Below, piece by piece: positions 32,648 to 36,674 of a DNA stretch of 36,674 nucleotides (the stretch's first letter is position 1; each line of letters begins with the position of its first letter). The notes beneath the pieces are model-generated. The model saw only the letters and a program-made list of their open reading frames with translations, made no database searches and was not told where the DNA came from. Source of the DNA: Nocardiopsis prasina DSM 43845 (lineage in GTDB: Bacteria; Actinomycetota; Actinomycetes; Streptosporangiales; Streptosporangiaceae). The translations under genes were made by a program, and so were the position numbers. The stretch spans positions 1-36,674 of the forward strand of contig NZ_ANAE01000125.1 of assembly GCF_000341265.1 (NCBI RefSeq). Reading direction: 5' to 3'.

Positions 32648-32962
32648 CTAGGCGACGCCGAGGGCGCGCAGGGCGGCGGTGGTCCCGGCGGCGGCCACGA
32701 CCACCACCAGGAACGGCGCGCGCAGCACCAGGGCGAGCGCGGCCGCTCCCAGCCCGGCCATGCGGGCGGTGTCCCAGTGCAGGCCCTGACCGTCGCCCAG
32801 GGCCTGCACGGCGATCAGAGCGGCCAGCAGCGCGAGGGGCACGGCCATGGCGAACCGTCGCAGCCACGGGTTGTCCAGCAAACGGCGCGGGGCCGCCAGC
32901 CCCGCGTACTTGAGCAGGTAGCACCCGGCGGCGGTGGCGACCAGCGCGATCCACATCGTCAT
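32648..32962 (-). CDS. azlD: AzlD-family branched-chain amino acid exporter subunit
   Basis: 104-residue membrane protein with three or four hydrophobic segments, small partner of AzlC in branched-chain amino acid export. Family features include TAAGCYLLKYAGL near the N-terminus, the DNPWLRRFAMAVPLALLAALI segment, and Ala/Leu/Val-rich C-terminal helices. The ATG at 32962 overlaps the azlC stop (ATGA), so the two are coupled and probably form a complex. It converges on kbl. Confidence 0.88.
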   Translation of the reverse strand: MTMWIALVATAAGCYLLKYAGLAAPRRLLDNPWLRRFAMAVPLALLAALIAVQALGDGQGLHWDTARMAGLGAAALALVLRAPFLVVVVAAAGTTAALRALGVA

Positions 32963-33702
32963 GACCGGACCCCCTCGGCACGGTCGGTCCCGTCGGCGCC
33001 GTCGGGCCGCCCCGTGGCGCCCCCGCGGTCGTCGGCGCCCACGAAGGCGAGCAGCCCGGCGGAGGCGGCCAGCAGCACCGGTACCCCCGGCGGCATGAAC
33101 GGGGTCGTGGCCAGCGCCAGCCCCGCGCCCAGCGCCGCGATCAGCCAGGTGCGCAGCCCGCCCTCGCGCAGGCGGGGCCACAGGAGCCCCAGGAAGATGG
33201 CCGGGCCCACCGCGTCCAGACCGAACGCGTCGATGTTGTCCACGCGGTCCGTGGCCAGCGCGCCCACCAGGGTCGTGGCCACCCAGAAGCCGCCCAGGAC
33301 CAGGTAGGTCGTCATGAACGCGGTACGGGCCGACTCCCGGTCCGGCTGGACCAGCGTCACCGCCGTGGTCTCGTCGATCACCCCGTGCGCCGCCAGCGCC
33401 CGGCGCACGCCCCGGTACCCCAGGACGTCGGCCAGCCGCAGCCCGTACAGGGTGTTGCGGGCGCCCAGCAGGAGGGCGCCCAGCGCCCCCGCGACGAGGT
33501 TGCCGCCGCCCGCGATCACCCCCACCAGCGCGAACTGGGAGGCGCCGGTGAACATGAACAGGCTCAGGAACACCGCTTGGGCGGGTGAGAGCCCGGCGGC
33601 CACGGCGGCGGTGCCGAAGGCCAGACCGGCGGCGCCGACGGCGACACCGATCCCCAGGCTGTCCCGCACCGCGGGAGATCGGAGTACGGAGAAGGTCTTC
33701 AC
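32959..33702 (-). CDS. azlC: AzlC-family branched-chain amino acid exporter subunit
   Basis: 247-residue membrane protein, the large AzlC subunit. Family signatures are the N-terminal GIGVAVGAAGLAFG, SLFMFTGASQFALVGVIA, LLGARNTLYGLRLADVL and the DETTAV segment; about six or seven hydrophobic stretches follow. The C-terminal 30 residues are a charged Gly/Asp-rich tail. GTG at 33702 has no Shine-Dalgarno; TAACGT lies eight bases upstream, suggesting a leaderless or near-leaderless mRNA. An AraC-type regulator gene lies directly upstream on the same strand. Confidence 0.9.
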   Translation of the reverse strand: MKTFSVLRSPAVRDSLGIGVAVGAAGLAFGTAAVAAGLSPAQAVFLSLFMFTGASQFALVGVIAGGGNLVAGALGALLLGARNTLYGLRLADVLGYRGVRRALAAHGVIDETTAVTLVQPDRESARTAFMTTYLVLGGFWVATTLVGALATDRVDNIDAFGLDAVGPAIFLGLLWPRLREGGLRTWLIAALGAGLALATTPFMPPGVPVLLAASAGLLAFVGADDRGGATGRPDGADGTDRAEGVRS

Positions 33703-34798: not shown

Positions 34799-35236
34799 AT
34801 GAGCAAGCCACAGATTCGCCGGGTCGAGGGCGAGCGGGACCGCGCGGCCGTCTTCGTGATCCGCGGCGCCGTCTTCGTCGCCGAACAGCAGGTTCCCATC
34901 GAGGAGGAGTGGGACGAGCGGGACTCCACCGCCGCCTTCCTCCTCGCCCTCGTGGACGGCAACCCGGTGGGCACGGTCCGACTCGTGGACCAGGGGGACG
35001 GCGCCGGTCTCCTCGGCCGGATGGCCGTCCTGCCCGCCGGACGGGGGAGGGGGACGGGCGCCGCTCTGGTGCGCGCCGCCGAGGAACTGGCCCGCGAGAT
35101 CGGCCTCGAACGTGTCGAGCTGCACGCGCAGACGCACGCGCTGGGCTTCTACGAGCGGCTGGGTTACACGGCCCACGGTGAGGAGTTCATGGACGCCGGG
35201 ATCCCCCACCTGCACATGGAGCACAAGCTCGGCTGA
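34799..35236 (+). CDS. GNAT-family N-acetyltransferase
   Basis: 145-residue acetyl-CoA-dependent acyltransferase. It resembles the ElaA/YjcF group: RGAVFVAEQQVPIEEEWDERD near the N-terminus, then strand GNPVGTVRLVD, the acetyl-CoA pyrophosphate loop RMAVLPAGRGRGTGAALV, and the C-terminal LHAQTHALGFYERLGYTAHGEEFMDAGIPHLHM, which is typical of that group. The substrate is unknown. The ATG at 34799 is probably leaderless (-10 TAGTCT six bases upstream). It is followed by a strong terminator, so it is monocistronic. Confidence 0.9.
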   Translation: MSKPQIRRVEGERDRAAVFVIRGAVFVAEQQVPIEEEWDERDSTAAFLLALVDGNPVGTVRLVDQGDGAGLLGRMAVLPAGRGRGTGAALVRAAEELAREIGLERVELHAQTHALGFYERLGYTAHGEEFMDAGIPHLHMEHKLG

Positions 35237-35251
35237 CCGGCTGTGACGAGC

Positions 35252-35281
35252 GCGCTCCCCGTCCGGTGTGACGGGGAGCGC
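35252..35281 (+). terminator. Strong hairpin terminator after the GNAT gene
   Basis: GCGCTCCCCGTC at 35252-35263 and its exact complement at 35270-35281 form a perfect 12-bp stem with a 6-base loop, 15 bp past the stop. No T-run follows. A -10-like TAGGAT at 35317-35322, with no clear -35, may start the next gene. Confidence 0.75.
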
Positions 35282-35392
35282 ACGCCCTCGGCCCGCCCCA
35301 TCGGGGTACTACCGAGTAGGATTCGGTTTTGGCGTCGGCGCCCCCAGAACCATTCGCCGACCGAGCACGAACACCGATCCGACGAGGAACAC

Positions 35393-36055
35393 ATGACGGT
35401 CAACACGCAGCCGGCCACCGAGAGCCCCGACGACCCACGAGCCTACGGACTCCCGCTCGTCGACGCCCACTCGATCCCCGCCGAACTGCGCACGTTGGTC
35501 TCCCGCGTCCACGACCTCGTCGATGCCGTCGCCAACACCGAGGTCGACTCCGACACCCTGGCCGAGACCGCCGACGTCGTCGAGGGACTCACCGACCGCC
35601 TCAACGTCGCCCGCCGCGAGATCGGCACCATGGTCCGCCGCGAACTCGGCGACGGCACCTCCGTGATCGGCACCATCACCAACATCGTGGAGGGCGAGAC
35701 CAACCCCGCCGCTCCGCGCCTCTTCCTCGACCGCACCGAGGAGGGCCTGCGCGCCGAGGTCACCCTCAACACCGTCTACCAGGGCCCTCCCGGCCTGGTG
35801 CACGGCGGCTGGATCGCCGCCATGCTCGACCAGGCCGTCGGCAGCGTCTCCTCCGTCGAGACCAGCCCCGGGCTGACCGCGCGCCTGGAGATCGACTACC
35901 GCCGCCCCACCCCGCTGTTCACCCCCCTGGAGATCACCTCCTGGGTGGAGCGGGTCGAGGGTCGCAAGGTCTTCGTGGCCGGTCGGATCCGCGCCCACGG
36001 TGAGGTCACCGCCGAGGCCAGCGCCCTCATGATCCGGGTCGAGGTCCCCGAGTGA
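35393..36055 (+). CDS. PaaI/4HBT hotdog-fold thioesterase
   Basis: 220-residue protein with a C-terminal hotdog domain (about 110-218). The thioesterase motif is GPPGLVHGGWIAAMLDQAVG (HGG turn plus the active-site helix), followed by LTARLEIDYRRPTPL and VFVAGRIRAHGEVTAEASALMI. The N-terminal 100 residues are an extra helical region (IPAELRTLVSRVHDLVDAV...), longer than in minimal PaaI proteins. It probably hydrolyses an acyl-CoA; the substrate is unknown. The ATG at 35393 has GAGGA about five bases upstream. Confidence 0.88.
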   Translation: MTVNTQPATESPDDPRAYGLPLVDAHSIPAELRTLVSRVHDLVDAVANTEVDSDTLAETADVVEGLTDRLNVARREIGTMVRRELGDGTSVIGTITNIVEGETNPAAPRLFLDRTEEGLRAEVTLNTVYQGPPGLVHGGWIAAMLDQAVGSVSSVETSPGLTARLEIDYRRPTPLFTPLEITSWVERVEGRKVFVAGRIRAHGEVTAEASALMIRVEVPE

Positions 36056-36063
36056 ACCGCGCC

Positions 36064-36096
36064 GTGACGGAGCGCTTCCCCGGGGTGTAGTAGCAT
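36064..36096 (+). promoter_or_regulatory. Promoter of the chorismate mutase leader
   Basis: A -35-like GTGACG at 36064-36069 is spaced 18 bp from TAGTAG (36088-36093) or 16 bp from TGTAGT (36086-36091). TAGCAT at 36091-36096 is a third -10 choice. Each gives a start at about 36098-36104, at or next to the first codon of the leader frame. Confidence 0.5.
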
Positions 36097-36103
36097 CACC
36101 ACC

Positions 36104-36163
36104 GTGACCCACCGCTATCACGTGTTTAGCCAGCCGACGCGCCCGTCGGCCGCTTTCACGTAG
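36104..36163 (+). CDS. Putative leader peptide of chorismate mutase
   Basis: A 19-codon frame, GTG to TAG, reads MTHRYHVFSQPTRPSAAFT. It begins seven bases after the TAGCAT hexamer and would be translated leaderless. It contains one Tyr and two Phe. The Tyr and the first Phe use TAT and TTT, very rare in this GC-rich genome, where TAC and TTC dominate. The downstream gene belongs to the Phe/Tyr pathway, so stalling at these codons could sense aromatic amino acids. The frame overlaps competing hairpins and precedes a strong terminator. With only three aromatic codons in 19, it is less biased than the classic pheA leader, so this is a hypothesis. Confidence 0.45.
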   Translation: MTHRYHVFSQPTRPSAAFT

Positions 36164-36183
36164 GCGGAGACGGGAACGTCGGC
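36133..36183 (+). promoter_or_regulatory. Alternative pairing elements in the leader RNA
   Basis: GCCGACG at 36133-36139 can pair with CGTCGGC at 36144-36150 (4-base loop) or with an identical CGTCGGC at 36177-36183. CCCGTC at 36142-36147 can instead pair with GACGGG at 36169-36174. GCCCG at 36141-36145 is complementary to CGGGC (36196-36200) in the terminator's left arm. These exclusive pairings are what an attenuator needs. Confidence 0.5.
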
Positions 36184-36188
36184 AAAAG

Positions 36189-36225
36189 GAGCACTCGGGC
36201 ATCGGCCCGGTGCTCTTTCGTCTTT
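36189..36225 (+). terminator. Intrinsic terminator/attenuator before chorismate mutase
   Basis: GAGCAC at 36189-36194 pairs with GTGCTC at 36210-36215, and CGGGC at 36196-36200 with GCCCG at 36205-36209, around an ATCG loop with one bulged T. The AAG before the stem extends it by pairing with TTT, and TTTCGTCTTT follows. It is the only terminator in the window with a T-rich tail, and it sits before, not after, a gene. The PaaI stop is 134 bp upstream and the chorismate mutase start about 90 bp downstream. Confidence 0.75.
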
Positions 36226-36316
36226 CCGGGCGGCCGACGCCCCAGTCCACACTTCCCTGACGGGTCGTACGGCCGCGCCGCATCCGCGAACGCATCCACA
36301 CCCGAGAGGGACCTCC

Positions 36317-36643
36317 GTGCACGACCGCCACAGTGAACCCGCGCCCGTCAGCGAGCAGATCCTGCGCCTGCGCGGCCGGATCGACCAGATGGACGCCGAG
36401 CTCGCCGCACTCCTCGAACGCCGCGCCCTCGTCGCCGCACAGGTCCAGCGGCTCAAGCCGGTCGGCTACTTCGCCGGACGCGACATGGAACGCGAACGCC
36501 GACTTGTCGAGCGCATGGCCGAGCACGCTCCCCGCCTGGGCGCGGACCGTCTCGCACCCATCATGGACAGTGTCATCAGCGCGGGCCTGGCCGCGGCCCA
36601 GGAGGAGGCCGCGACCGGTCCCGGCGGAGTCGGAGGCTCCTGA
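36317..36643 (+). CDS. Chorismate mutase (AroQ type)
   Basis: 108-residue all-helical AroQ-fold enzyme that rearranges chorismate to prephenate, the entry to Phe and Tyr. The pattern is LRGRIDQMDAELAALLERRALVAAQVQRLK, with the N-terminal Arg, the mid-helix Arg pair and Lys. Then RDMERERRLVERM carries the second-helix Arg/Glu, and DRLAPIMDSVISAGLAAAQEE forms the last helix. There is no prephenate dehydratase or dehydrogenase domain. Small stand-alone actinobacterial chorismate mutases (AroQ-delta, as in M. tuberculosis) are activated by DAHP synthase, which may apply here. GTG at 36317 has GAGGG six bases upstream. The leader suggests control by attenuation. Confidence 0.92.
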   Translation: MHDRHSEPAPVSEQILRLRGRIDQMDAELAALLERRALVAAQVQRLKPVGYFAGRDMERERRLVERMAEHAPRLGADRLAPIMDSVISAGLAAAQEEAATGPGGVGGS

Positions 36644-36661
36644 CACCCGGTGGCGGCGGGG

Positions 36662-36674
36662 CCCCCCCCCCCCC
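36662..36674. repeat. Poly-C run at the window end
   Basis: Thirteen consecutive C residues end the window, directly after GGCGGCGGGG and 18 bp past the chorismate mutase stop. This is most likely a contig end or sequencing artefact, since the run reaches the last base. Confidence 0.9.

Follow-up and report, generated by a model that had tools for sequence, protein, structure and literature searches.

A putative ribosome-mediated attenuator ahead of the chorismate mutase gene of Nocardiopsis prasina and its actinobacterial relatives

What controls the chorismate mutase (CM) gene that closes a 36,674-nucleotide stretch of Nocardiopsis prasina DSM 43845 DNA (hereafter the window), where a short open reading frame and a terminator-like hairpin stand before the gene? 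An initial annotation, made from the window alone, proposed that a ribosome stalled on Tyr or Phe codons of the short frame allows transcription to pass the terminator. Following up this proposal, we consider it moderately probable that the region is a ribosome-mediated transcription attenuator of CM responsive to the supply of aromatic amino acids. Our commitment to the broad interpretation (dependence on the ribosome, sensing of aromatic amino acids and control of CM) is firm, whereas the sign of the response is assigned only tentatively. The features discussed below are collected in Table 1.

Table 1. Features of the CM leader region, in window coordinates.
Feature	Position	Strand	Remark
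-10 box TAGCAT (TANNNT)	36091..36096	+	7 nt 5' of leader start
Leader ORF MTHRYHVFSQPTRPSAAFT, 19 codons + stop	36104..36163	+	GTG start 36104, stop TAG 36161-36163
P1 5' strand CCGCUA	36112..36117	+	partner 36161-36167
Tyr5 codon TAT (position Phe-3), likeliest sensor codon	36116..36118	+	
P4 5' strand GUGUUU, codons 7-8, putative antiterminator	36122..36127	+	partner 36189-36194
Phe8 codon TTT, inside antiterminator helix P4	36125..36127	+	
Segment A, GCCGACG	36133..36139	+	partner B (P2) or C (P3)
Segment B, CGUCGGC	36144..36150	+	pairs with A in P2
P1 3' strand UAGGCGG (stop codon and next bases)	36161..36167	+	
Segment C, CGUCGGC	36177..36183	+	pairs with A in P3
Intrinsic terminator GGAGCACUCGGGC-AUCG-GCCCGGUGCUCU, tail ending TTTCGTCTTT	36188..36225	+	hairpin 36188-36216
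GAGCAC, terminator 5' arm and also P4 3' strand	36189..36194	+	
Segment D, GCCGACG, copy of A directly 3' of U tract	36233..36239	+	can pair with C
Segment E, CGGCCGC	36270..36276	+	can pair with 36230-36236; kept in genus alignment
SD-like GAGAGGGA	36304..36311	+	
Chorismate mutase (CM_2), putative controlled gene	36317..36643	+	Pfam PF01817, E 3.6e-12

CM is the sole CM_2 match found in the N. prasina genome by Pfam search; the NCBIfam chorismate mutase models also match it, but below their own cut-offs. A thioesterase gene ending at 36055 lies upstream of the leader. At the other end, the window closes with a run of C (36662-36674) that is followed by undetermined bases (from about position 875 of locus L050), and an assembly gap probably lies directly behind CM. 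A few genes from CM, a minus-strand ORF (32959-33702) encodes what we take to be an AzlC-type transporter; a similar ORF also sits close 3' of the CM leader in another genus (L119). Base-level reading places the terminator approximately 90 nt from CM. The RNA spanning 36085-36232 has a predicted folding energy of -72.4 kcal/mol (z = -4.2), with 0/200 shuffles as low. A search of 35200-36674 against Rfam 15 returned no family, the lone microRNA model (E 1.7) falling far below its cut-off.

The 19-codon frame was found as initially described, its GTG lying close to the predicted transcription start and its reading ending at TAG. The distance from the end of the TANNNT box to the start codon is 5-8 nt in all 51 leaders read individually (34 from the genus and 17 from other genera) and exactly 7 nt in 46, with the start codon picked by eye in 17 of the 51. 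A scan of the window found no consensus sigma-70 promoter; hence the promoter originally claimed survives as a conserved TANNNT box and not as a consensus sigma-70 site. Judging from this conserved spacing, transcription probably begins at or adjoining the GTG, making the leader ORF leaderless. For Streptomyces lividans, the portion consulted of a 2021 study describes both a TAnnnT -10 consensus and leader ORFs that are leaderless (PMC8079986). The initial annotation had named a separate CM promoter 3' of the terminator as an observation that would speak against attenuation. A TANNNT box occurs between terminator and CM in just 1/34 genus leaders, so that transcription of CM very likely comes from the leader promoter or, by read-through, from further upstream.

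The hairpin had also been called the only terminator of the window. This does not hold: a consensus scan gives six terminator-like sites, two of which are this hairpin, and the site counts (3 and 3) show no excess over shuffle means (4.7 and 3.0). The case for a terminator is one of conservation and covariation, not of the scan. An intrinsic terminator is present between leader and gene in the genus leaders, where its basal pair is A-U in 23, G-C in 6 and G-U in 3 of 32 sequences, and 6-8 T follow within 14 nt of GGTGCT in 34/34. The GAGCA of the 5' arm is invariant in the unanchored genus alignment (32 leaders); in the wider set GAG served as an anchor, and its invariance there arises by construction. 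In one genus (g38: L091, L097, L101 and L203) the U tract appears by eye to be little developed or absent.

The named relatives of the locus are 13 Nocardiopsis loci and one of Streptomonospora. This CM was matched in 34 of 40 genus genomes, and the leader is kept in all 34. Each of these leaders has an intact frame with an ATG or GTG start, a stop and at least one Phe codon, in agreement with what the initial annotation expected of relatives. Changes in frame length (L014, L042 and L033) amount to one codon each. One of the six genus genomes without this CM has another CM_2 gene elsewhere, and five have none. Among these six, G015 retains a decayed leader (L222, G015:C7:259294-259418) in which the stop is lost, the frame broken and the Phe codon TTC, and no CM was seen behind it. 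A full-length leader was not found in the other five, the partial matches to the family profile R2 (in G004, G025 and G033, and a second one in G015) being weak where present. With both elements carried in 34/34 genomes and a relic in G015, leader and CM are kept together, and the sole leader seen apart from the gene has a disrupted frame.

A first model (R1) found the leaders of other genera, which have the same layout with a different A/B/C set, as well as a second kind of leader ahead of DAHP synthase. Seventeen CM leaders from other genera were read individually, bringing the set to 51. The R2 profile then matched 116/200 genomes and 38/68 genera of the family at E values up to 0.05, with 111 of the 116 below 0.001; across the class it matched 40/296 genomes and 20/114 genera, some of these matches being spurious. 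R2 is mostly a sequence profile, as it retains only six base pairs. Of 110 loci obtained or fetched, 107 fit the leader pattern; they comprised 106 distinct leaders, 87 of them new, giving 138 leaders in total; L211 fell outside the pattern, and the weaker matches L138 and L140 lie in apparent coding sequence. Because a locus had to show a start codon, a Phe codon, GCCG and a TANNNT box to fit the pattern, the presence of these four in the 87 does not count as independent evidence. A CM motif follows 3' on the same strand in 84 of the 87, more than 500 nt away in 73 of them. The three others are L134, L135 (where the contig ends) and L165 (no motif in reach). L134, in a genome of another family, places the same kind of leader (reading VTRSYRWFRQPAAEPVTSP to its stop) ahead of a class I DAHP synthase of aroFGH type. 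In the one protein tested, that of L144, a partial DAHP-synthase-like part, to which the Pfam profile aligns incompletely, is joined in front of CM; translations at other CM-leader loci resemble this fusion by look.

Base-level reading confirmed the mutually exclusive pairings of segment A with B or with C that had been noted at the outset, A and C being separated by 37 nt. The pairing of A with C had been assumed to block the terminator. As sole antiterminator, A:C is ruled out, since C does not touch the terminator stem. The blocking helix is instead P4, overlooked initially, which joins codons 7-8 to the terminator 5' arm. The alignments support two competing folds, P1+P2 protecting the terminator and P3+P4 sequestering its 5' arm, with P4 linking the Phe-codon region to that arm.

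To align the leaders, blocks were delimited by sequence anchors, the anchors being TTT/TTC then GCCG (Phe), CGGC (segment C), CGGY or CGCY (segment B) and GAG plus C, ACC or GCC (arm). The alignments contained 32 of the 34 genus leaders (A1), the 40 distinct rows of 51 (A2) and 19 of the 51 (A3). Pairs were recounted over the 40 distinct rows without those fixed by anchors, because anchored pairs prove nothing. For P3+P4, 84.3% of the unanchored cells are paired compared to 61.9% in shuffles (0/500 as high), partners slid by 1-3 bases reach at most 38.6%, and the covariation score is 0.519 against 0.189. The corresponding values for P1+P2 are 84.1% and 71.0% (0/500 as high), at most 49.4% for slides, and 0.359 against 0.146. 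Individually, the unanchored pairs of P3 and P2 are paired in 83.9% and 81.9% of cells, and inclusion of the anchored pairs raises P3+P4 to 90.7% and P1+P2 to 88.8%. The three unanchored pairs of P4 alone reach 85.0% versus 73.1% in shuffles (0/500 as high), although 75% is reached by one slid version in which a single pair stays in place.

Exchanges are readily seen within P4. Its second pair is U-A in 22, C-G in 5, G-C in 5 and U-G in 3 rows and unpaired in 5, and the helix reads GUGUUU:GAGCAC in Nocardiopsis, GGGUUU:GAGCCC in L094 and L101, GCGUUU:GAGCG in L056 and L058, and GCCUUC:GAGGCC with one mismatch in L106. The four core pairs of P1 are 86.3% paired across the 40 distinct leaders, with both-side changes at 2/4; with two extra outer pairs the figure is 68.8% against 64.7% in shuffles, and hence only four pairs hold. 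Segment A turns into GCCGGCUC in other genera, and B and C change to match. The compensatory changes that the initial annotation looked for in both alternative pairings are thus seen across genera, with P1+P2 and P3+P4 each above shuffles. Counts of double-change pairs and of further pair types, taken over all helices scored, showed no excess over shuffles. Covariation therefore backs both folds: an antiterminator that overlaps the terminator arm, and the protecting fold that excludes it.

Beyond the U tract, the longest run pairing C with D averages 7.3 nt over 138 leaders compared to 5.8 nt in shuffled downstream sequence, C having been located through its match with A, wrongly in some rows (e.g. 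L060 and L061). D and E, both conserved in the genus, cannot decide termination in a simple scheme, as they lie after the termination point; they may act in the messenger made by read-through.

Aromatic codons fall at defined distances from the conserved Phe codon (Phe 0). They occur at Phe-3 in 85/138 and at Phe-2 in 76/138 leaders, compared to 17 of 2072 other non-start codons (Phe 0 excepted). Tyr occupies Phe-3 in 82/138, encoded by TAT (UAU) in 74 of the 82, and Phe at Phe-2 is UUC in 62/62. The Phe 0 codon is TTT in 132 and TTC in 6 of the 138 (UUU 49 and UUC 2 in the first 51); with TTT/TTC used as an anchor, the presence of Phe throughout is by selection for the last 87, while the 34 genus leaders can be read from the unanchored alignment. 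TAT and TTT are indeed rare in the window, as initially claimed, amounting to 1 of 143 Tyr and 3 of 245 Phe codons in 23 script-chosen ORFs. Rare synonyms thus look selected at Phe-3 and at Phe 0, given UAU in 74/82 and UUU in 132/138, yet UUC in 62/62 at Phe-2. Phe 0 is accompanied by an aromatic codon at Phe-3 or Phe-2 in 118/138 leaders and lacks one in 20, and Tyr is absent altogether from 6/34 genus leaders. Of the 138 leaders, 67 have this Phe as codon 7 and 66 as codon 8, Arg and Tyr staying at a constant distance from it. Arginine, histidine or initiation as the sensed step is not favoured: codons 2-3 vary and the Arg/Tyr-Phe spacing is fixed.

The effect of ribosome position was modelled by ribosome-masked, pseudoknot-free folding of 49 of the 51 leaders (34 genus and 15 other; no arm was found in L091 and L101) and of 86 of the 87 further leaders. 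In the first run the automatic arm choice was shifted in L026, L059, L060, L085, L090 and L097. As long as the terminator 3' arm is still untranscribed, the window leader folds with lowest energy into P3+P4. On the full transcript of this leader the terminator wins at equilibrium at all ribosome positions tested (P at least 0.97), and any antitermination must therefore be kinetic. With the ribosome upstream, sequestration of the terminator 5' arm is 0.8-0.9 in the genus and 0.7-0.8 in the 15 others, and a ribosome at codons 1-4 likewise permits the antiterminator. With Tyr5 (Phe-3) in the A site, sequestration is 0.87/0.71 (genus/others) for a P+10 footprint and 0.80/0.61 for P+11, dropping to 0.18/0.27 for P+12; P4 is no longer allowed at P+12 or more. 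Moving the ribosome one codon past Phe-3 brings it to 0.18 or below for all footprints tested. Later positions bring it back to about 0.2-0.8 through non-conserved pairings, and a P site at codon 12 gives a high value in many genus leaders, much weaker in other genera. In the 86 further leaders the positions rank alike but the effect is weaker: sequestration is 0.32 and 0.24 at Phe-3 (P+10 and P+11) versus 0.36 and 0.35 at the stop codon, and it is 0.01-0.07 from Phe-2 to Phe 0, where the terminator is freest.

The folding models point to Tyr5 as the likeliest sensor codon. It appears to be the sole conserved aromatic codon compatible, narrowly, with starvation switching CM on; Phe8 appears incompatible, and in folding the aromatic codons at Phe-2 and Phe 0 are placed contrary to such a response. 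A stall at Phe8 would cover P4 and free the terminator, because P4 contains the Phe8 codon. Other upstream partners for the terminator arm under a Phe8 stall were sought, and none holds across species. The initial suggestion that a stall at Tyr or Phe frees the antiterminator is accordingly retained only tentatively for Tyr5, where it depends on a P+10 or P+11 footprint and is weak in the 86 further leaders, and abandoned for Phe8.

In the mechanism that we favour, transcription would start at the leader start codon and a ribosome would load immediately. A ribosome moving past codon 5 would leave the terminator 5' arm largely freed, allowing the hairpin to form and transcription to stop. When Tyr-tRNA is short, the ribosome would be held at or before the rare Tyr5 UAU and cover the P1 5' strand; P3 and P4 could then form and delay the terminator, and RNA polymerase would read into CM. 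With no ribosome, P1+P2 and P3+P4 would be left to compete. A stall at Phe8 would favour termination, since the Phe8 codon is itself antiterminator strand. The tentative sign of this scheme, in which starvation would switch CM on, is argued by analogy to pheA and aroR together with the Tyr5 geometry.

A more elaborate form of the scheme, which seems rather unlikely to us as a whole, would be a two-codon device in which a Tyr stall opens CM and a Phe stall three codons on closes it, the opposite actions following from the Phe codon being the antiterminator strand. Such a device would be widespread in actinobacteria, standing before CM genes, before CM fusions and, in a single genome, before a class I DAHP synthase, and its repeated A/B/C/D/E segments would span the terminator.

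If the leader family acts as an attenuator of CM, it would be a main control of the chorismate branch point in the family sampled, more than half of whose genomes (116/200) gave a match. The position of a regulatory codon within the switch makes the sharing of the same bases by ribosome and antiterminator testable.

The sign could also be reversed. A stall at Phe-2 or Phe 0 would then promote the terminator while an absent or early-held ribosome means read-through, with CM damped at Phe-tRNA shortage and raised when leader translation starts slowly. The folding results lean this way in part: a ribosome placed anywhere from Phe-2 to Phe 0 leaves the terminator arm least sequestered in the 86 further leaders, and almost the same is seen in the first set. 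Furthermore, the Phe codon that forms the antiterminator strand is kept as UUU or UUC even though Leu codons would pair too. We nevertheless think a reversed response unlikely: for an enzyme of Phe/Tyr biosynthesis it would be hard to justify metabolically, and folding of the related DAHP synthase leaders follows the classical logic.

A protein- or ligand-binding RNA switch comparable to the actinobacterial LEU element, with the short ORF incidental, would account for the compact covarying structure and for the pseudoknot that P1 and P3 could make. The authors of the LEU work, in the part of their paper seen, themselves doubted classical attenuation at LEU (PMC1262725). Against such a switch, start, frame and stop of the ORF are kept, its indels within the genus are whole codons, aromatic codons occur at three positions with rare synonyms at two, and no Rfam family matches; this explanation is quite improbable.

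Control by the nascent peptide, in which an RYxxF..PAP peptide senses a metabolite and stalls the ribosome near the ORF end, masking B and P1 while A and C pair around it, is in our judgement very improbable. The peptide is alike across genera, with a P-A-P or P-T-x-P segment, and the 37-nt interval between A and C comes close to the size of one ribosome footprint. However, the codons for the conserved C-terminal residues lie in A and B, where pairing limits which bases can change, and the residues that follow as well as the peptide length vary. That the hairpin is an ordinary terminator of the thioesterase gene it follows, accompanied by a chance ORF, is extremely improbable in view of a leader that accompanies CM across genera and is decayed in G015 where no CM stands at that place, of the -10 box between the thioesterase stop and the leader, and of alternative folds that covary.

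Returning to attenuation by a translated leader, the open-licence literature matches listed included no actinobacterial CM attenuator. The consulted part of a 2005 survey states that conserved RNA structures were not seen before Phe and Tyr operons in Actinobacteria (PMC1262725), and the eight leader peptides given for S. lividans in the part consulted of the 2021 study include none for Phe or Tyr (PMC8079986). The LEU element upstream of leuA in Actinobacteria has Leu codons that pair with the Shine-Dalgarno box, as described in the survey excerpt (PMC1262725). The CM leader resembles this description in that codons of a leader ORF pair with a downstream expression signal and in its pseudoknot potential. 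It differs in that the partner of the Phe codon region is the terminator arm (36189-36194), while the SD-like sequence is found at 36304-36311.

E. coli pheA encodes a chorismate mutase-prephenate dehydratase and has a leader with a run of Phe codons. In the CM leader loci, by comparison, CM stands alone or, in other genera, forms a fusion with a DAHP-synthase-like part. Their leader ORF is probably leaderless, with its Phe codon lying inside the antiterminator. Control of the E. coli chorismate mutase enzyme by pheL-pheA through Phe-tRNA and a leader peptide is summarised in a source seen in excerpt (PMC11802643).

An aroR leader of aroF in Corynebacterium glutamicum was reportedly described by Neshat et al. 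in 2014. Within the sections consulted, two papers give its leader peptide as containing Phe-Tyr-Phe (PMC4046766, PMC11802643). Going by these descriptions, aroR is the nearest described case, an actinobacterial leader peptide before an aromatic-pathway gene like the CM leader, with the difference that aroR controls DAHP synthase and the leader studied here precedes CM.

A DAHP synthase leader is also present in the N. prasina genome itself, where an aromatic leader (L081, G000:C192:45745-45888; reading MQQNFWRFYGYRPISPVACKALR to its stop) and a terminator precede a DAHP synthase with a ferredoxin-like domain. L081 and its relatives L062-L067 resemble the CM leader in being found by the CM-leader profile (L081 only at E 0.07), and L081 likewise has a TANNNT-type box (TATAGT) placed 7 nt ahead of its start codon, followed by aromatic codons, alternative folds and a terminator. 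The DAHP synthase leaders differ in having five aromatic codons and a segment A of their own that pairs directly with the terminator region. In folding, their antiterminator is kept with the ribosome as far as about codon 9-10 (P site at codon 9) and lost at the stop codon in 7/7, species differing in between; this behaviour is classical, because the aromatic codons are codons 5, 6, 8, 9 and 11.
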